This document shows, piece after piece, positions 35,631 to 52,582 of a stretch of 64,000 bases of DNA. The DNA is from Psychrobacillus sp. FSL K6-4046. GTDB lineage: Bacteria > Bacillota > Bacilli > Bacillales_A > Planococcaceae. The DNA is taken from positions 3,155,312 through 3,219,311 of the forward strand of contig NZ_CP152020.1 in the NCBI RefSeq assembly GCF_038624605.1, written 5' to 3'. Every line of letters begins with the position of its first letter. Positions within the stretch are counted from its first letter, which is position 1. Under the pieces are notes generated by a model that was not told the origin of the DNA, ran no database searches, and saw only the letters and a list, made by a program, of their open reading frames with translations. Position numbers and translations under genes: made by a program.

Positions 35631-36572
35631 TTATGCTGTTTTTTTACGATCGATTAATACTGCTAATAATATAACTGCACCCTTCACCACTTGCTGGAAG
35701 AAGGAGGATACCCCAATTAAATTTAGACCATTATTCAAGACACCGATTATAAGTGCCCCGATTAAAGTACCAACAATCCAACCACGACCACCTGTTAAGC
35801 TTGTACCACCAAGTACTACCGCTGCAATGGCATCTAGTTCAAACATGTTACCTGCAGTAGGCTGAGCTGAATTCAAACGAGACGTTAAAATAAGAGAAGC
35901 AAGTGCTGCTAGTGCACCTGTTAATGCGTAAACATATATTTTAATACGGCCAACCTTAATACCAGAAAGACGAGAAGCCTCCTCGTTACCTCCTACCGCA
36001 TAAACTCGACGACCAAATGTCGTCTTTTTCAAGATAAAATATAGAACTCCAAATGCAACAGCCATTGTTACGACTGGTACAGGTATTCCTAAGAAATATC
36101 CTTTCCCAATCATTTGAAAAGATACAGAATCGCCTAAACCTGATATTGGTCTACCTTCTGTGTAAACTAATGTCAATCCTCGGTATATAGTCATTGTTGC
36201 TAAAGTAGCGATAAATGGAGCAACATTTCCTTTAGAGATAATAATTCCGTTAATTGCTCCTAGAACAGCTCCCAAAATAAGACCTATTAGCATAGCTAAA
36301 ATTGGATCCATTCCACTAGCAAGTAATCCTGCTGTAACTGCTCCTGTCAGAGCTAAAATTGATCCAACTGATAAATCAATCCCTCCAGTTAAAATAACGA
36401 AGGTCATCCCAAACGCGATAAGCGCATTAATAGAAACCTGTCTAAGTACATTCATTAAGTTATTTACGGTTAAAAAATTTGGGCTTAATATAGTGATGAT
36501 GACCACTAGTAAGATAAGTCCTAGCAACGGTCCTAATTTTTGTAGTACTGATTGTGAACTAGATTTTAGCAA
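35631..36572 (-). CDS. rbsC: Ribose ABC transporter permease RbsC
   Basis: The 313-residue inner-membrane permease has about eight or more spans and the BPD_transp_2 family motif region [14 protein letters not shown]. The start is TTG 36572, with GGAGGGG 6 nt upstream inside the end of rbsA; the genes overlap by 14 bp, showing translational coupling. Confidence 0.95.
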
Positions 36573-38055
36573 CTTTGTCCCCTCCGGTAGCGTAATGCAT
36601 TATTTTTTCTTGTGTCATTTCTTCTTTGGTAACTTCACCGGTTAACTTTCCTTCATGCATCACGAGCACTCGATCGACCATTCCAATGATTTCAGGAAGC
36701 TCGGAGGATACCATAATGATAGATACTCCATTTTCTGCAAGTGTGTTAACAATGGAGTAAATTTCTTTTTTCGCGCCTACGTCTACACCGCGTGTCGGTT
36801 CATCCAATATTAAGATGTCTGGCTCAATACCTAGCCATTTGGCAATGACTATCTTCTGTTGATTCCCTCCACTTAATGATTTAACGGTTTGATCTGGACC
36901 AGAAGTACGTACACCTAGTCTTTTTACCATGGAATCATAGAGGCTTTTTTCTTTTTGCGTATTCACAACACCATTTTTAGATATTTTACTAAAATTTGTA
37001 ATACCTAAATTTTCTTTTACGGAGAAATCTAAAATCAATCCTTCAGATTTTCTATCCTCTGTTACGAAGCCGAAACCGAGCTTTATCGCATCTTGCGGAG
37101 TATTTATTTTCACTTGTTTACCATCAAGTATTAGCTCTCCACTATCGAGCTTTTTATAACCAAATAGGGATTGAACTACCTCTGTTCTTCCTGCACCCAT
37201 TAGGCCAGCGATACCAAGTATTTCTCCTTTTCGTAACTCAAACGAAATATCCTCGAAGTAACCTTTTCTAGTTAAGTTTTTTGCTACTAGCTTTACATCC
37301 CCAATTTTAGATTCTCTATCTGGAAAACGTCCGCCTAGCTCTCTCCCAACCATCATTTGTACAATTTCATCAAAGTTTGTTTCTTTTATATTTCTAACAC
37401 CTACATAGCTTCCGTCACGTAGAATAGTGATGCGGTCACATATAGCAAAGATTTCTTCCATTCGATGGGAAATATAGACGAAGGATACACCTTTCGCCTG
37501 CAATGCTCTAATAGTCTCAAAAAGTGTCTCTATTTCTCTATCGGTTAATGCTGCGGTCGGCTCGTCCATGATGATGACCTCTGCATTAGAAGAAATGGCC
37601 TTTGCAATTTCAACTATTTGCTGCTTACCAACTGAAAGATTTCTTGCAGTCGTCTTTACGTCTATATCTAAGCCCAGACTTAGTAGCACCTCTCTAGCAG
37701 CCTTGTTCATTTCTTTTGTTTTTAAAATACCCGATCTACCAAGGGTTTTTTCGTTCCCAAGAAATAAGTTTTCAGCCACTGATAGATCTGGAAGAATATT
37801 AAGCTCTTGGTGGATTACAGCTATCCCAGCCTGCTCTGCTTCCTTTGGGTTTTTAAATTCAACAGGTTTTCCTTTAATAGTGATTTCACCAGAATCTTTT
37901 GTATAGATACCTGTAAGAATCTTCATCAAGGTAGACTTACCTGCACCGTTCTCTCCCATTAGCGCATGAATTTCTCCTGGTGCTATTTCGAATTCCACAT
38001 TATTTAACACCGTATTTCCATTAAAGGCCTTTGTAATACCAGTCATCTGAATCAT
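36559..38055 (-). CDS. rbsA: Ribose ABC transporter ATP-binding protein RbsA
   Basis: The 498-residue protein has two nucleotide-binding domains. The first has [10 protein letters not shown] and [14 protein letters not shown]; the second lacks a canonical Walker A, as usual in this family, but has [15 protein letters not shown] and [16 protein letters not shown] 38055 is preferred over the GTG at 38067 because AAGGTGGTGG lies just upstream. Confidence 0.95.
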
Positions 38056-38069
38056 TGCTTCCACCACCT

Positions 38070-38459
38070 TTAAAATATGACACCAGCTTGTAAGATTATA
38101 TTTGCATAAGGACTAGCCTCACCAGTCCTTATAATAACTTTAGATTGTCTAGTCATTGCTTTAAATTCCTCATGTGAGACTTCAGAAATTTGTTCAATGG
38201 ATTTATTCACTACATAGTGCATTTTTGCATTAGCGGTCTTCATCTCAGCTGCAACATACGCCTTTTCCACTACTAAATCGTCTAACACAACTGCTAAAAT
38301 TTCATCGAATGATGGTTTCCCAAGGATATAAGATAAATCGATGCACGTAACGCCATCAGGGATTGGTAACCCACAATCGCTTATTGTAATTTGATCGGTA
38401 TGTCCTAGCTTTGCAAAAATTCCAGCTAAATCACGATTTAATATGCCATGTTTTTTCAA
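38070..38459 (-). CDS. rbsD: D-ribose pyranase RbsD
   Basis: The 129-residue mutarotase converts beta-pyranose to beta-furanose ribose for the kinase. It shows [22 protein letters not shown] with the catalytic His, and the C-terminal [13 protein letters not shown] motif. Its ATG overlaps the rbsK stop (ATGA). Confidence 0.96.
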
Positions 38460-39340
38460 TTGCTAACACCCTCTAATCTTTTTACTACTTCCGTATGGCT
38501 TGGCATACCGCCTTGAGCACCAAATTTTTCTACAGACAAAGAGGCAGATGCATTTGCGTAACGAACCGCTTCTTCTAAACTTAAACTTTGTCCAAGTGCA
38601 TGAGCGAGTGCTCCGTTAAATGTATCACCTGCACCCGTCGTATCTACTGCAGTTGTTTTAAATCCGGGTACGAGTATATGTTTCGTTCCATCAAAATATC
38701 TAGCACCCTCACTACCTAACGTCACAATTAGCTTGTTTGGATATTTCTCTAAAGTTGCTTCCATATTTTGACCAAATATTAGCTCACACTCCGTTTCATT
38801 TGGTGTTAAATAGGCAACATAGTCCATAAATTCTAGCTGAAAACCACTAGCTGGCGCAGGGTTAAGCAATACAGGAACGTTTAACTCTCGGCAAAGCTCT
38901 AGCGTGTATTTCACCACAGGAATTGGAATTTCTAGCTGCATGATCACAAACTTGCTTTGCTGAATTGTTTCTTTCATCCTTTTGATGTTTGCCTCAGTTA
39001 ACAAATAGTTTGCTCCAGGGACGACGATAATTCTGTTATCGCCTTCGGATAATAAAATATTAGCGATTCCAGTTGCAGCCTCCTCTGTTTGCATAACTGA
39101 ATCGGTATTTACTCCATTTGCTTTCAGGTCCTCTAATAATTCTCTTCCAAAGCTATCTGTTCCAACGCTAGCAAGCATATGTACATTGCTTCCTAAGCGT
39201 GCTGCAGCAACAGCCTGGTTTGCTCCTTTGCCTCCGGGGATAGTCGTAAAGAGTTGTCCTAAAACCGTTTCCCCTTGGACGGGAAAGTTGTCTGTTTGTA
39301 CTACAATGTCCATATTCATGCTGCCTATAACTGTAATCAT
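38456..39340 (-). CDS. rbsK: Ribokinase RbsK
   Basis: This 294-residue PfkB-family kinase has the N-terminal PGGKGANQAVAAARLG and the C-terminal DTTGAGDTFNGALAHAL with the catalytic Asp and anion hole. It phosphorylates ribose at O5. The start overlaps the rbsR stop by 4 bp. It should not be confused with the SigB sensor kinase of the same symbol at 30331. Confidence 0.96.
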   Translation of the reverse strand: MITVIGSMNMDIVVQTDNFPVQGETVLGQLFTTIPGGKGANQAVAAARLGSNVHMLASVGTDSFGRELLEDLKANGVNTDSVMQTEEAATGIANILLSEGDNRIIVVPGANYLLTEANIKRMKETIQQSKFVIMQLEIPIPVVKYTLELCRELNVPVLLNPAPASGFQLEFMDYVAYLTPNETECELIFGQNMEATLEKYPNKLIVTLGSEGARYFDGTKHILVPGFKTTAVDTTGAGDTFNGALAHALGQSLSLEEAVRYANASASLSVEKFGAQGGMPSHTEVVKRLEGVSN

Positions 39341-40320
39341 CGTTGTCCACTCCTTGTCGTTCCTCGTTCCACTAGCTCTACAGGTACTTGAATTACTCTT
39401 TCTTCTATTTCAATTTCTTCAATAATTTTAATAAGTATACGGGTTGCCAAAGCACCCATTTTGTAAATGTCTTGGGCTACCGTTGTCAGTCCTGGAGTCA
39501 ACATTCCTCCAAGTGAAATTCCATCAAACCCCATAATTTGTAGCTGATCAGGAACGCTAATGCCTAATGAATGTGCAGCCTTCAAAGCACCGGCAGCAGA
39601 AACATCCGTGCTTGCAAATATGCCATCTACACCTTTGATATTTGTTAAGAATGTCCTTGCAATCTTCTCGGATTCTTCAAAGTGAAAGGGACTTTCGATA
39701 ATATGAGTTTGCACCTTTTTTCCTTCTACAGCCTTAAGAAATCCAGTGAGTCGATCATCAGCAGGACCGAGACCTTTAGGACCTCGCATAAATACGATAT
39801 TTTGACAGCCTTTTTCTAACAAGTAGTTGGTACCCATACACGCTCCGTCAATATTATTAGAAGAAACGGTCGGAATAGATTCATGTATCATGCGATCTAA
39901 CGCCACAAGTGGTACTTTTAAATCTTCATAGTGGCTTGCACGTAGCTGGTTCGTCGTTACGATAAACCCTGCTACATATTTTTGCTTTAAAGTATCTATA
40001 TAATGTATTTCTTTTTCAGATTTTTCATCTGAATTACACAAAACTACTGTGTATCCATAGGATAATGCGATATCCTCCACTGCTCGAGCAAGCTCTGGAA
40101 AGAATGGATTCATAATATCAGGAACGATTAACCCTATAAAGTTTGTTTGTTTTGTCGTTAGAGATCTTGCTACTTGGTTTGGTATATATTCTAATTTATC
40201 GATTGCTCTTTTAATCTTGAGCTTTGTATCTTCACTGATATACCCTTTTCTATTTAAATAACGGGATACAGAAGCAACGGAAACACCAGCTTCTTTTGCT
40301 ACGTCTCTAATGTTTGCCAT
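39337..40320 (-). CDS. rbsR: LacI-family ribose operon repressor RbsR
   Basis: This 327-residue LacI/GalR repressor has the N-terminal HTH (IRDVAKEAGVSVASVSRYLN), hinge region and a ribose-binding-like core. It is the first gene of rbsRKDACB, with a perfect 18-bp palindromic operator 24 nt upstream, so the operon is presumably autoregulated and induced by ribose. Confidence 0.95.
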   Translation of the reverse strand: MANIRDVAKEAGVSVASVSRYLNRKGYISEDTKLKIKRAIDKLEYIPNQVARSLTTKQTNFIGLIVPDIMNPFFPELARAVEDIALSYGYTVVLCNSDEKSEKEIHYIDTLKQKYVAGFIVTTNQLRASHYEDLKVPLVALDRMIHESIPTVSSNNIDGACMGTNYLLEKGCQNIVFMRGPKGLGPADDRLTGFLKAVEGKKVQTHIIESPFHFEESEKIARTFLTNIKGVDGIFASTDVSAAGALKAAHSLGISVPDQLQIMGFDGISLGGMLTPGLTTVAQDIYKMGALATRILIKIIEEIEIEERVIQVPVELVERGTTRSGQR

Positions 40321-43244: not shown

Positions 43245-43925
43245 TTACTTTTTCTTAAAAAGAAACCATAAAAATATGAATATTATAAATGCAACAAACT
43301 CTAATGATAGAATATAGAACGGATATGGCCCAAGGAAATCCAACAAACTTCCTCCAGTTGGCTTCCTTTGTAGAAACATATAGTTTCCGTCCACCAGCGA
43401 GTTAATCCAAAAAACAAATGGCAGCAAAATATTTAAAGCAAGCATCGTTGCAAGAATTCCCTTAAATGTCGGTCGATATCCTTTCACCCAAGTAAAGTAG
43501 AGCGCTGTCAGTATAATCCCCGCATGTGTATAAAAAAAATGAAAATATCTAAAGTGCGGGTAATTCATATCCAATACAGGAGTAATCATGGCTTGTATTG
43601 CACCACCTATGCCTGCATAAAAAACAAACTGGTAAACGAAACGGTTACCCGTCCATAGTAGAACGATTGTCAGTAGAAGGCTAATACTGCATAGTTCAAG
43701 AGGCAGTGAATTCCTTAGCTCCCATCGGTCTGTTTGAATGAGCCAAATATGATATACAATATCCATCCCTAATAACGACAATCCAAATAGACGTTCCACA
43801 CGAAGAAGTCCTTTCTCCGATTTTAGCCATCGATCCCTTGTGAAAAAAAGAATAAGTATGAAAAGAATAAATGCAGCTATCGCACTCCAATGCTCTACCG
43901 AAAGCATGATAAATCGCTCTTCCAA
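43245..43925 (-). CDS. YwaF/TMEM164-type membrane protein (TIGR02206 family)
   Basis: The 226-residue protein has about seven membrane segments. The segments LPLELCSISLLL and YFHFFYTHAGIIL are typical of the YwaF family, whose eukaryotic relative TMEM164 is a lipid acyltransferase. Function in bacteria is unestablished. Confidence 0.8.
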   Translation of the reverse strand: MEERFIMLSVEHWSAIAAFILFILILFFTRDRWLKSEKGLLRVERLFGLSLLGMDIVYHIWLIQTDRWELRNSLPLELCSISLLLTIVLLWTGNRFVYQFVFYAGIGGAIQAMITPVLDMNYPHFRYFHFFYTHAGIILTALYFTWVKGYRPTFKGILATMLALNILLPFVFWINSLVDGNYMFLQRKPTGGSLLDFLGPYPFYILSLEFVAFIIFIFLWFLFKKK

Positions 43926-46616: not shown

Positions 46617-48995
46617 CTAATGTTCGCGATTGATAAGATAGTTTAAAAAGTGTTTTAAGAAGGTTGTATCTATAGAAACGTTTTGAAGAGAATCCATAGC
46701 TAGACAGTAGTTCTCCCACATTTCTATAGCGGCACCCTCCTGACCCATAATAGAAACGAATGTCGTGCTATTGTTTTCTGCATCTCTACCTAACCCTTTT
46801 CCTAGTAGCTCTGCATCTCCTTCCACATCGAGCAGGTCATCCTTAATCTGAAAGGCGATGCCAGCATAACGAGCAAATTTCTTTAGAGCAGCAATCTCCT
46901 CTTCATTTGCTTTGGCCAAAATTGCAGGCATTACCAAGGCGGCTTCAAATCCTATTCCTGTCTTATAAAAACATAAGGTATTTAACTGCTCCCTCGTAAG
47001 TGTTCTATTTTTAGAGTCCAAGTCCATCGCCTGACCTTTACACATTTCAGCTATTGTGTGGGAAGAATATTGAATCATCTGTAGCACAGTATTTGCATCA
47101 AATTGTTTTAAGTTAGTTTGCTCCTCAATAGCTTTTTGAGTGAGGAAAAGACCTGTCAATTCCGCAACAGCTACGTTATAAACTTCATGAAGAGTAGAGC
47201 GTCCGCGTCTTATTGGAGCATTATCCTGAGCTGGTAAATCGTCAAATATAAGAGAGGCAGTATGAAGATATTCCAATGATTTTAGTAGTGGAGCAATAGA
47301 TGCTTCATCTAACTTGTAAATCTTCACTCCCATAAACCATGCTACGATCGGTCTTAGCCTTTTACCATCTCCTTCTAAGCTGTAATTGGACGCTTCAGTT
47401 ATAGAGTCTTCGAAATCGGTATTGTTAGAAGAAGTAATAGACAATGTCTCGTTAATTTCATTACGAACTACTTTTATCGTATTAGAGAAATCCTCTCTTT
47501 CTTTACTTTCACTCTTTAATACTGTAATCATATGATCTCTTAGTAATTTATCAAAGAAGTCCACATCATCTGCTTTTCGAACCATCTTTTGTAGGAGCTT
47601 ATTAAAACCTGGTGTCCCGAAACGAAAGAGATCCATAATTTCTTTGTATTTACTTTTGCCTACCCGCTTCTTTAAGCGTTTAAGTCCATTAATAGCTCGA
47701 TCTAATATTACTTCTCGTGTTTGTTGGTCGGAATGATAGACATTATGAATTAAATTACTAATAACAGCCCAATACAATTCAAAAGGATTGATCAGGTCTG
47801 AACGTTCTTTATGATACTTTAAATAATACGTATAAGGAGTCACTGCTCCGTCCTTCATATCTTCGAACATATCAGCGAAATCATCTGAGAGCTGATTATA
47901 AATACCATAAAAAAATGTACGGTTATCCATCTCTTGATTGTCAGAAGTACTAAGGACTGAACGAACAATTTGCCTTGATGAGGAGGCTTTTAATATAACC
48001 GGTATATAAAGCTCCTGATTAGTATAGCTCGAATCCATTAAACTCTTATCACGATCCACTTCCTGCGAATGAAAAAACACATACGCTTGCTCAAAGAATT
48101 TTTTCCTTGTCTCAGGTCGCTGATTTTGCTCAATATACTGAAAAGCCTCTCCAAGCTCTTGGTGTATATAAGTTATCAACTCTGCATTTTCGCCAAGCCA
48201 CTCTCCAAGTACAGGCACAATACCCGTAGTGAGTGTTGTTCTTATTAAATTGGCATATTGTTTTTCCTCTTCGTTCGAAAGTATTTTGGCATCTAGCAAA
48301 TCATCAATAAATGGATAGGTCAATCCATAGGAATAACCCAGTCTGATTGCCTTGTCGAGCCTCTTAGAACGCTCTTCAGGAGATACATCGCTGTCCATCT
48401 CTTCAATCTCTTGCATGATAACCCCTGCTATAATTTTAACAAGTTTTCGCTGTGCGTGTGCTGCATCCATTCCTTTTGGGATATGTTTGGATACTTGCTT
48501 TAGCTTGTTTAATAACCAAATATACGTTAACTCTACATTTTCCTTTTTAGCCATACGGTATAATTCGACGACATTAAACGCTTGTGCTTCCTTGTCTTCC
48601 CCGCTTGAATTCGTCAGCTTATCCTTTAAGCTACTTACTACATCCGAAATCCTGTCTTGAGTTTCATGAGAATCAAGGGATTTTCCTAAATCACGGAGAA
48701 AAATGTATGAAATGCTTCGATTTAAGTAACTGTCTAGCTTACCTCTGTAATTTAAATACTGTATGTAATGGTTAAAATCCTTCGTATCAGCGTTTCCTTT
48801 TGTTTTTGTAAAAAGGGATAGGATGGGATTATTAACATGATTAGATTTCCAAATCCTTATATCTTCCGTTAAAAGGGGGATATAGTTTTTTTCCTTAACC
48901 TGTATATGAAGCTCATCAAAATATTGGGCGGCTTTCTGATTGGCTTGCCTATAGCATTCATCGGCATTTATTATTGAGTTTAATTGAATATTCAT
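46617..48995 (-). CDS. Large isoprenoid synthase: long N-terminal half plus polyprenyl synthase domain
   Basis: The 792-residue protein is more than twice the length of a normal polyprenyl diphosphate synthase. Residues about 535-792 form a trans-prenyltransferase domain with GKRLRP (544-549), first Asp-rich motif DDLPAQD (585-591), RRGR, KTG (678-680), GQAMDL and second Asp-rich motif DDLLD (719-723). The N-terminal half is all-helical with its own FIDDLLD (DDLLD at 231-235) and SDDFADMFED (371-379), suggesting a second class I terpenoid-synthase-like fold. No partner genes adjoin. It may make a prenyl diphosphate and then cyclise or transfer it, but no activity can be assigned by eye. Confidence 0.8.
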   Translation of the reverse strand: MNIQLNSIINADECYRQANQKAAQYFDELHIQVKEKNYIPLLTEDIRIWKSNHVNNPILSLFTKTKGNADTKDFNHYIQYLNYRGKLDSYLNRSISYIFLRDLGKSLDSHETQDRISDVVSSLKDKLTNSSGEDKEAQAFNVVELYRMAKKENVELTYIWLLNKLKQVSKHIPKGMDAAHAQRKLVKIIAGVIMQEIEEMDSDVSPEERSKRLDKAIRLGYSYGLTYPFIDDLLDAKILSNEEEKQYANLIRTTLTTGIVPVLGEWLGENAELITYIHQELGEAFQYIEQNQRPETRKKFFEQAYVFFHSQEVDRDKSLMDSSYTNQELYIPVILKASSSRQIVRSVLSTSDNQEMDNRTFFYGIYNQLSDDFADMFEDMKDGAVTPYTYYLKYHKERSDLINPFELYWAVISNLIHNVYHSDQQTREVILDRAINGLKRLKKRVGKSKYKEIMDLFRFGTPGFNKLLQKMVRKADDVDFFDKLLRDHMITVLKSESKEREDFSNTIKVVRNEINETLSITSSNNTDFEDSITEASNYSLEGDGKRLRPIVAWFMGVKIYKLDEASIAPLLKSLEYLHTASLIFDDLPAQDNAPIRRGRSTLHEVYNVAVAELTGLFLTQKAIEEQTNLKQFDANTVLQMIQYSSHTIAEMCKGQAMDLDSKNRTLTREQLNTLCFYKTGIGFEAALVMPAILAKANEEEIAALKKFARYAGIAFQIKDDLLDVEGDAELLGKGLGRDAENNSTTFVSIMGQEGAAIEMWENYCLAMDSLQNVSIDTTFLKHFLNYLINREH

Positions 48996-49127
48996 CTGTC
49001 ACCTTCATTTACTTTTTTTATGATTTCCTAGTAATTATAACCTATATTTCATTCTCAGTTTTCATCTAGTTACTTACAATTTATTCTTAAGGTTAACCCC
49101 AAATGCCTAATTTCAGGAATGATAAAA

Positions 49128-49510: not shown

Positions 49511-50788
49511 ATGAATAATAGTACGAATCATAAAATTAATCAAGTGAGTGAAAAGACGTTGGTCATTGGGATCGATATCGCCAAGCGCAAACATTACGCA
49601 TGTGCTGTAGACGACCGTGGACGAGTATTGCATAAGTCATTCCCTATCAGACAGTCGGCAGAAGGATTTACGACCTTCTATGAACAGCTACTCGCATTAA
49701 AAAACAAACACGAGAAATCAGAAATCCTTGTTGGGTTCGAACCAACGGGACACTACTGGATGAACCTAGCGGCCCATTTAACAGCGCATGGCATCCGCTA
49801 TGTGCTTGTGAATCCTAGTCACGTGAAGAAATCCAAAGAATTGGATGACAATCTACAGACAAAGAACGATGTGAAGGATGCGATGGTCATCGCCAAGCTA
49901 ATCCGCGATGGGCGGTTCAGCTTCCCACGCATTTTAGAAGGCATCGAAGCGGAACTGCGCAATGGTGCATCCCATCGCGCCTCGCTTCAGAAAGAGCTTG
50001 GCATCATTACCAATCGAATCATTCGATGGACAGATCGGTTCTTCCCAGAATTCCAACATGTCTTTAAAGACATCGGGAAAACCGCCCTGGCAGTGCTGGA
50101 GAAAACACCATTACCAGAGGACCTTCGAGAAAAAGAAGTGGCGGAGCTACTCCCTTTCTACAAAGAGGTTGCTGGGTTAAAGTGTGTCTCTTCTCCCAAA
50201 ATAGTTAAACTCAAGGAAGCCGCTGAAATCTCGATCGGGTTGACCGAAGGCCTGGAGATGGCTCGATTTGAGATTCATACCTTGGTTATGCAATATAGAC
50301 TCGTTCAACAACAGTATGAATTACTGGCAGAACGGTTACAAGAAATCGCTCAGAATATGCCCGATTATCTCTTTTTGATATCTATCGAGGGGGTCGGCCC
50401 CAATACAGCCGTCGAGCTGTTATCAGAGGTAGGGCCGTTCACTAACTTTCATAGTCCACGCCAAATTATCAAACTAGCGGGACTGACATTACGGGAGAAC
50501 TCCTCGGGTGAACAAAAGGGACAAAAGAAGATTTCTAAACGAGGACGCAGAAAATTGCGTGCAGCCCTCTTCCGAGCCATCTTGCCTATGATTCGTTACA
50601 ATCCTGCCTTTAAGGCACTGTATCATTATTATATTGAACGCCCAGTAAACCCTTTAAGAAAGAAAGAAGCCATGGTGGTCTTATGTGGCAAACTATTAAA
50701 AATCGCACATGGCCTCTGTACGAAGAAACAGATGTTTCAGTCAGAACGCATGATACAAGACCTGACTGTTCTTCAAACGGCAGCGTGA
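49511..50788 (+). CDS. IS110-family transposase (DEDD recombinase)
   Basis: The 425-residue protein has an N-terminal DEDD/RuvC-like domain (VIGIDIAKRKHYACAVDD, GFEPTGHYWMNL, and a DVKDAMVIAKLI segment with the late acidic residues) and a C-terminal Tnp20 domain (ISIEGVGPNTAVELLSEVG, and LAGLTLRENSSGEQKG with the serine). It appears intact. TATAGGAGGGCC precedes ATG 49511. These enzymes use a structured bridge RNA from the element's non-coding end to pick donor and target sequences. Confidence 0.95.
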   Translation: MNNSTNHKINQVSEKTLVIGIDIAKRKHYACAVDDRGRVLHKSFPIRQSAEGFTTFYEQLLALKNKHEKSEILVGFEPTGHYWMNLAAHLTAHGIRYVLVNPSHVKKSKELDDNLQTKNDVKDAMVIAKLIRDGRFSFPRILEGIEAELRNGASHRASLQKELGIITNRIIRWTDRFFPEFQHVFKDIGKTALAVLEKTPLPEDLREKEVAELLPFYKEVAGLKCVSSPKIVKLKEAAEISIGLTEGLEMARFEIHTLVMQYRLVQQQYELLAERLQEIAQNMPDYLFLISIEGVGPNTAVELLSEVGPFTNFHSPRQIIKLAGLTLRENSSGEQKGQKKISKRGRRKLRAALFRAILPMIRYNPAFKALYHYYIERPVNPLRKKEAMVVLCGKLLKIAHGLCTKKQMFQSERMIQDLTVLQTAA

Positions 50789-51205: not shown

Positions 51206-52582
51206 ATGAATGAGGTGATGGATATGATGACGAAAAATCAAACCAATGAACGCGAACAATTAGAAATCTTGACTATTGAACAGTTGGTACCACAAGACCA
51301 CCTTGTTCGTAAGTTAGATGAGGCAATTGATTTTTCCTTTATCTATCCATTGGTTGAAAATCTTTATTCGACAATAGGGAGACCTAGTATCGACCCAGTG
51401 GTACTTATCAAGATGACTTTTATCCAATATACCTTTGGTATACGGTCCATGCGCCAAACCATTAAAGAGATTGAAACCAACATGGCATACCGATGGTTTC
51501 TAGGCTTTGGTTTCCATACCGAGGTTCCCCATTTCTCAACTTTCGGGAAAAACTATGTCCGTCGTTTTGCAGACACAGATCTATTTGAGCAGATTTTCTA
51601 CAGAGTATTAAAGGAGGTCGCAGATCGTGGGCTCCTAAGCCCGGATCATGTCTTTATTGATTCGACCCATGTGAAAGCTAGTGCGAATAAGAGAAAGTTT
51701 GAGAAGAAGGTTGTTCGTAAAGAGACGCGGGCTTATGAAAAGAGGCTCCAGGAGGAGCTCAACCTCGACCGGGAAAAGCATGGGAAGAAACCATTCCCAC
51801 CTGAAAAGTTTGAAAAGGAAGAGTACAAGGAGATTAAGGAATCGACAACAGATCCTGAAAGTGGTTACTACGTAAAAGATGAACGGACAAAGCAGTTCGC
51901 CTATTCTTTTCATGCTGCAACAGACGAGAAGGGTTTTGTGCTTGCAAACATTGTCACACCTGGAAATGTTCACGACAGCCATATGCTTGAACCACTGGTT
52001 CAGAAGGTCATCGACCGGGTGGGACGCCCAGTCGTTGTTGCCGCTGATGCAGCCTACAAGACACCAGCTATTGCGAATTTCCTTTTAGAGAATCATGTCC
52101 TTCCTGCACTTCCGTACAAACGACCAATGACAAAAGAAGACTTCTTTAAAAAACACGAGTATGTTTATGACGAACATTATGACTGCTATCTCTGTCCCGA
52201 AGGACAGGTTCTTAACTACCGAACAACAACGAAGGAAGGTTATCGCCAGTATGCCTCAACTCCTTCTATTTGTGCCACGTGTCCAGTGATTGACCAATGC
52301 ACGCAGAGTAAGAATAAACAAAAGATGATTCAACGTCATATCTGGCAAGATTATTTGGATGTAGCTGAGGACTTACGTCATAACTATGAAATGAAAGAAA
52401 TTTATGGGAAGCGTAAAGAGACGATCGAGCGTGTCTTTGCCGATGCCAAAGAAAAGCATGGTATGCGATGGACAACCTTAAAGGGTCTTAAAAAATTGTC
52501 CATGCAGGCGATGCTAACTTTTGCTGCCTTAAATCTTAAGAAGTTGGCCAGCTGGACCTGGAAAATGCCAAAAATGGCGTAA
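51206..52582 (+). CDS. IS1182-family transposase
   Basis: The 458-residue protein has the IS1182/IS5-like N-terminal domain and a DDE catalytic core: first Asp in VFIDSTHVKASANK, second in VVAADAAYKTPAI, Glu in ETIERVFADAKEKHG. A Cys-rich strip (CYLCPEGQ, CATCPVIDQC) precedes the last block. It is apparently intact. Starts at 51206, 51224 and 51227 are all possible; GAGGTG favours 51224. Element ends were not resolved. Confidence 0.93.
   Translation: MNEVMDMMTKNQTNEREQLEILTIEQLVPQDHLVRKLDEAIDFSFIYPLVENLYSTIGRPSIDPVVLIKMTFIQYTFGIRSMRQTIKEIETNMAYRWFLGFGFHTEVPHFSTFGKNYVRRFADTDLFEQIFYRVLKEVADRGLLSPDHVFIDSTHVKASANKRKFEKKVVRKETRAYEKRLQEELNLDREKHGKKPFPPEKFEKEEYKEIKESTTDPESGYYVKDERTKQFAYSFHAATDEKGFVLANIVTPGNVHDSHMLEPLVQKVIDRVGRPVVVAADAAYKTPAIANFLLENHVLPALPYKRPMTKEDFFKKHEYVYDEHYDCYLCPEGQVLNYRTTTKEGYRQYASTPSICATCPVIDQCTQSKNKQKMIQRHIWQDYLDVAEDLRHNYEMKEIYGKRKETIERVFADAKEKHGMRWTTLKGLKKLSMQAMLTFAALNLKKLASWTWKMPKMA

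Follow-up and report, generated by a model that had tools for sequence, protein, structure and literature searches.

What does a bacterial gene make when it joins a polyprenyl synthase to a second, helical half with Asp motifs of its own? The question is raised by a single open reading frame of 792 codons in the window, the stretch of 64,000 nucleotides that we analyzed, which comes from a Psychrobacillus-like genome of 3.89 Mb in one contig. A sequence-only reading of this DNA had placed a 792-residue protein at 46617-48995 without naming a strand. The protein is there, on the minus strand (the frame is read from 48995 down to 46617); the plus-strand reading of the same interval has stops throughout. 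The motif positions given in that reading (D231-D235, D371-D379, D585-D591, K678-G680, and D719-D723) were likewise found to be right. The gene and its parts are as follows.

46617..48995, minus strand: whole fusion gene, 792 codons plus stop; both halves are present in 111/111 loci
49000..49006, minus strand: GAAGGTG, probable ribosome-binding site, in the sequence just 5' of the ATG
48546..48995, minus strand: residues 1-150, helical N-terminal extension (predicted model; 72% identity to homologous locus L035)
47661..48545, minus strand: residues 151-445, class I terpenoid-synthase-like domain (predicted fold, weak PF00348, dN/dS 0.059)
48291..48305, minus strand: DDLLD, residues 231-235, first Asp motif of the N domain; DDxLD is invariant
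47961..47990, minus strand: KxxxSRxIxR, residues 336-345, candidate diphosphate-binding site (putative role); Lys/Arg invariant
47859..47885, minus strand: DDFADMFED, residues 371-379, second Asp motif of the N domain; D371, D372, D375, and D379 invariant
47496..47660, minus strand: residues 446-500, helical linker with conserved DDVDFFDKLLRD (predicted model, alignment)
46620..47495, minus strand: residues 501-792, trans-isoprenyl diphosphate synthase domain (Pfam, NCBIfam, PDB sequence match, fold)
47349..47366, minus strand: GKRLRP, residues 544-549, the IPP/diphosphate-binding motif; K545, R546, R548, and P549 invariant
47223..47243, minus strand: DDLPAQD, residues 585-591, first Asp-rich motif of the prenyl synthase, with A580 five residues upstream of D585
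46956..46964, minus strand: KTG, residues 678-680, invariant
46827..46841, minus strand: DDLLD, residues 719-723, second Asp-rich motif of the prenyl synthase (alignment)

The C-terminal half had been read as a trans-prenyl synthase, and database and structure searches bear this out. PF00348 (polyprenyl_synt) matches residues 531-753 with E 2.8e-50 and 171.3 bits against a Pfam cut-off of 27, and the best fold match, which covers model residues 498-792, is the FPP synthase 1rqi_A (Z 37.3, rmsd 1.8, 289 residues), with Z running from 30.7 to 37.3 across the best 50 matches listed. By sequence, the closest PDB matches are the GGPP synthases 7my1 and 7mxz (E about 1e-38). We aligned the window protein with 48 homologues, each 60-69% identical to it; loci L003-L005 and loci at least 80% identical to a kept one were left out, and L034 was replaced by the window protein. 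In these 49 rows GKRLRP, DDLPxxD, RRG, KTG, and QxxDDxLD are invariant or at least 90% conserved. The C half thus has all the attributes of a trans-isoprenyl diphosphate synthase: the PF00348 profile, two Asp-rich motifs, the KT motif, GKRxRP, and the fold. It shares GKRLRP, DDxxxxD, RRG, KTG, and DDxxD with type II CrtE and with IspA FPP synthase; in contrast to these enzymes, it is fused to a second class I domain, has Ala at -5, and falls below the NCBIfam cut-offs of both.

The length of the chain that this half makes may be judged from the residues around its first Asp-rich motif. A580, five residues before the first Asp (D585), is identical in 49/49 rows. Ala at this position combined with a DDxxxxD motif is typical of GGPP synthases, and under this chain-length rule the product would be about C20. 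The NCBIfam comparison speaks against a GGPP-type product, since the C half scores higher with the FPP synthase model (207.5 bits, cut-off 275) than with the CrtE GGPP synthase model (155 bits, cut-off 460), failing both cut-offs. The genome encodes two further PF00348 proteins, and so the prenyl synthase of the fusion is probably not the housekeeping enzyme. One of the two appears IspA-like by eye, because HTYSLIHDDLPSMD stands at its first Asp motif and its locus also has a dxs-like frame; it has Tyr at the position five before the first Asp, where the fusion has Ala. The remaining one is HepT-like by eye.

The N half is where the question becomes harder. Its Asp clusters had been likened to class I metal sites, a comparison that depended on their conservation among homologues. 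Indeed, D231, D232, D235, N367, Q368, D371, D372, D375, and D379 are identical in 49/49 rows, as are the basic residues R183, K184, K187, R315, K336, R341, and R345. The two Asp motifs are separated by 140 residues in the N half and by 134 in the C half. D371, D375, and D379 are spaced i, i+4, i+8 as in the NSE/DTE triad, yet each of them is an Asp in every one of the 49 rows. Short Asp-rich motifs are easily found in acidic helices, and the N half passes no family cut-off, both of which would suit a polyprenyl synthase of the ordinary kind, whose helical extension is unrelated and whose Asp clusters arose by chance. We regard this explanation as very improbable: it is opposed by the invariance of the motifs, by the predicted class I fold, and by a relation to stand-alone class I-like proteins, which are described below. 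Judged from the alignment, the invariant Asp motifs of the N half are more than chance.

Substitution rates were compared as well. Against the 82%-identical locus L035, whose values are shared by L006 and were counted once, dN/dS was 0.059 in residues 150-445, 0.093 in the prenyl synthase, and 0.136 in residues 1-150; the corresponding identities are 87% for 150-445 versus 72% for 1-150. Six further pairs gave 0.068-0.129 for the class I segment and 0.100-0.138 for the prenyl synthase; these pairs share members, and all the ratios are rough, since most segments have a dS near 1 or higher. The class I segment had the lower ratio in four of the six pairs and the higher one in two (0.107 versus 0.105; 0.129 versus 0.107). 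On these values the N domain is clearly under purifying selection.

The same data bear on the idea that the N domain does no catalysis itself and instead controls chain length or oligomer form, as the small subunit does in the known heterodimeric prenyl diphosphate synthases. Heterodimer entries 3aqb and 9kp1 do occur among the PDB matches, through chains B and D only; however, we take these chains to be the catalytic subunit. Regulatory subunits lose their Asp motifs, whereas both motifs of the N domain are intact in 49/49 rows, and against L035 and in 4/6 further pairs the constraint on residues 150-445 equals or exceeds that on the prenyl synthase. The invariant Asp pairs and the selection seen in the sequences speak against an inert regulatory half, which we consider quite unlikely.

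If the N half is catalytic, what kind of enzyme would it be? Profiles give a mixed answer. Matches to class I families had been proposed as a check, and no Pfam or NCBIfam family reached its cut-off with the window's N half. When the N halves of the 49 sequences were scanned singly, the commonest Pfam match was a weak one to PF00348 (22/49, best E 3.4e-4, among the 25 of 46 matched families listed). The terpene synthase C family, PF19086, matched 1/49 N halves with E 0.015. AvrM-A, an unrelated helical family, matched 11/49 (best E 7e-4), which we take as chance, so that weak Pfam matches of N halves mean little alone. When the N-half profile was searched against PDB sequences, three weak matches were found, none of them a terpenoid enzyme by name. 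A duplication of the C half as the origin of the N half was considered and dropped: hhalign of the N and C profiles covered only 21 columns at E 0.14, and hence we do not claim a recent duplication.

AlphaFold2 gave a full-length model with pLDDT 84.0 and pTM 0.80 and a model of residues 1-500 with pLDDT 82.8 and pTM 0.83; the latter was used for the N-half fold searches and is nearly all helical, as the sequence-only reading had it. With VIA-align, the titles of the best 50 of 741 chains with Z of at least 8 all name class I terpene synthases or prenyl diphosphate synthases. The top match was the diterpene cyclase BjKS (4xlx_B; Z 14.6, rmsd 4.2, 247 residues, model residues 157-433), the ent-kaurene synthase of Bradyrhizobium japonicum, which is a single-domain protein with 9% identity to the N half. 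All 50 Foldseek matches listed belong to the class I terpenoid-synthase superfamily, with IDS structures ranking first; none has E <0.001, the best being 6.8e-3. A Z of about 14 also occurs for helical models without a clear relative, and helical bundles can reach such values by chance, so that the fold call rests on the whole list together with motif order and profile evidence. We conclude that the N half is predicted to have the all-helical class I terpenoid-synthase fold, with the Foldseek matches all at E of 0.001 or above. The fold comparison, which could have spoken against the sequence-only reading, thus came out on its side.

The family resemblance leaves two catalytic roles to be weighed. 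In the rival that we take most seriously, the N domain is an active class I enzyme that transfers or couples the prenyl chain coming from the C domain, the acceptor being another diphosphate, a small molecule, or a peptide. The prenyl synthase family PF00348 is itself the commonest Pfam match (22/49 N halves), IDS structures come first in the Foldseek ranking, the invariant K336 and the residues R183/K184/K187 before the first Asp motif recall IDS Lys/Arg sites, and conservation is high (75% mean column identity). From K336 and the best Pfam match, the N domain looks as IDS-like as cyclase-like. However, an RRG after the first Asp motif is a feature of IPP-condensing enzymes, and residues 228-247 of the N domain hold none; SQS_PSY is matched neither by the window's N half nor among the 25 of 46 families listed for the 49 N halves; among frames of at least 70 aa there is no widely shared neighbour to serve as acceptor or precursor; and VIA-align puts terpene cyclases first. 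We hold transfer or coupling to be possible but unlikely, if better placed than a regulatory role.

To see where the two halves occur, we searched a genome collection with the N half, obtained 187 related loci, and analyzed the best 80 of them. Both halves lie in one frame in 111/111 loci, a count that includes the window gene and near-copies and has the window's own gene twice, as L003 (cut at 762 aa) and L004; the homologues are 770-815 aa long in all 111 but L003. Among the best 80 of the 187 loci, the nearest named record is Psychrobacillus sp. BL-248-WT-3 (98% in the N half), and the titles include Psychrobacillus, Neobacillus, Cytobacillus, Sporosarcina, Metabacillus, Mesobacillus, Oceanobacillus, Virgibacillus, Lederbergia, Paenibacillus, Clostridium, and a few others. 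The sole actinobacterial title among these 80, Arthrobacter beigongshangensis REN13 (L094), is possibly a mislabelled Bacillus. In the window's own family, the fusion is present in 69/261 genomes (with six stops in one of them and as a partial copy in another), including 18/19 genomes of its own genus; within genera the distribution is patchy. The copy with six in-frame stops (G224:C1:542671-545013) comes from a genome of 83% completeness and 9% contamination and is either a decayed gene or a product of poor assembly.

Searched against 398 genomes of the phylum, the N profile gave eight strong matches, the window's own genome included, and three weak ones. The best of the weak matches, L122 (E 2.7e-5 for one genome, 23.6 bits), is a stand-alone class I-like protein from another Bacillota lineage whose two Asp motifs line up, in the same order, with those of the N half; hhalign gave a probability of 96 with 28% over 151 columns, and 94.7 with its relative L127. 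The other two, L123 (with spore-germination-like frames by eye) and L124, were judged chance and dropped; the next score after L122 was 17.9 bits, so that L122 stands only 6 bits above a match judged chance, which counts against our preferred reading. L122:3-1193 (minus strand) and L127:1495-2751 (plus strand) encode proteins of about 400 aa, 48% identical, with the motifs NxLDD and DDLQDVxED. They share with the N half both Asp motifs, the Lys motif (in L122 the Lys of EKGGTS is the aligned counterpart of K336), and a downstream EDxxxGxxT, and differ in being without a prenyl synthase half. No Pfam or NCBIfam family matches L122, and by eye no prenyl synthase gene was seen among the frames of at least 120 aa in the 18 kb surrounding L127.

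The surroundings of the fusion gene were compared between the window and 80 loci, some of them cut by contig ends. With neighbours clustered at 38% identity and 70% coverage (frames of at least 70 aa), no gene family occurred within 1.5 kb in more than eight loci; looser clustering produced one large mixed ABC-transporter cluster, present within 2 kb in 12 loci. Shared neighbours are confined to close relatives. The constant presence of both halves (111/111 loci) and the lack of a widely shared neighbour fit a one-gene product. In the window, two transposase genes, of the IS110 type (49511-50788, plus strand) and the DDE/DUF772 type (51206-52582, plus strand), lie directly upstream of the fusion gene; these insertions may be recent, since the near-identical locus L034 has a different gene ending <200 bases upstream. 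Elsewhere in the window are ribose uptake operon-like genes at 36559-40320 on the minus strand (by eye, an ATP-binding transporter and RbsD-, kinase-, and LacI-like frames) and a TMEM164-family bacterial membrane protein at 43245-43925, also on the minus strand (PF14808, E 4e-57).

We also looked for signs of a link with sporulation. In the regions upstream of the fusion gene in 109 loci, patterns for sigma E, K, G, and F were not clearly above those in shuffled regions. A sigma H-like pattern was present in 11/109, against a mean of 2.3 and a maximum of 8 in 100 mononucleotide shuffles, many of the loci being close relatives. All 69 fusion-bearing genomes of the family are among the 197 that have SpoIVA, and 0/64 of the others carry the fusion (n=261); this co-occurrence follows genera and hence is not independent evidence of such a link.

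How does the fusion compare with described enzymes? Fungal PTTS are the nearest in layout: single chains of about 700-800 aa with a class I half and a trans-prenyl synthase half and with DDxxD in both. Their class I half precedes the prenyl synthase half, the same order as here, and they make GGPP or GFPP and cyclise it. The fusion has this layout, a TS-like half and a PT half in one chain. In contrast to PTTS, whose second TS motif is NSE/DTE, it has DDxxDxxxD; the NSE/DTE motif is absent from the TS-like half in 49/49 rows, and PF19086, as noted, matches a single N half. Because the second metal motif is Asp-rich, we do not file the fusion as a PTTS: by its sequence it is PTTS-like in anatomy and is not classed as a member. 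Chimeric PTTS have been described as confined to fungi (PMC8307374). In the open-licence PMC literature we recognised no description of a bacterial fusion of this kind, which does not prove its absence from print.

The class I large-terpene synthase of Bacillota, YtpB, is the tetraprenyl-beta-curcumene synthase (DUF2600, PF10776). It differs from the fusion in being a separate, single-domain protein. As a relative of the N half it was rejected, the profile comparison being not significant (E 0.14, probability 0.4); for the YtpB profile, 10/13 loci were aligned, and two without a frame and one with a wrong-looking frame were left out. PF10776 had no match in any of the 37 own-family genomes searched, the window's own included, and YtpB and the fusion occur together in G282, a Paenibacillaceae-like genome. 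The title of one paper links YtpB to B. subtilis spores (PMC11708026).

Taken together, the gene encodes two domains in a single frame, with the full set of prenyl-synthase motifs, invariant Asp pairs, and purifying selection on both halves, and its N half is predicted to adopt a class I fold. The reading that we favour, and consider reasonably probable, is a single-chain bifunctional terpene synthase in which the C domain builds a chain of about C20 and the N domain ionises and cyclises it. The C domain would condense IPP with an allylic starter to a chain such as GGPP, the length being that indicated by A580, and the intermediate would pass from the C domain to the N domain. There, within about residues 150-445, D231/D232/D235 and D371/D375/D379 would bind the diphosphate through Mg2+, and ionisation would yield a cyclic or rearranged terpene hydrocarbon or alcohol. 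The sequence-only reading had proposed a bacterial fusion that could build a prenyl chain and cyclise or transfer it; the predicted fold and the invariant Asp residues support this, and we infer the building and cyclising of the chain, along with its length, metal binding, and transfer between the domains.

Since no Pfam or NCBIfam model reaches its cut-off with the N half, profile-based mining would label the fusion only as a polyprenyl synthase. The case seems to us evenly balanced for a further step: that the fusion is a bacterial counterpart of the fungal chimeras, of independent origin, in which an undescribed IDS-like class I domain has been joined to a prenyl synthase, so that a single gene would suffice to make a whole terpene, of C20 or another length, from IPP and DMAPP in Bacillus-like Bacillota. 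If true, this would mean a second origin of the chimeric layout and a new family of terpene enzymes, and would give a large bacterial group a terpene whose existence can be tested.
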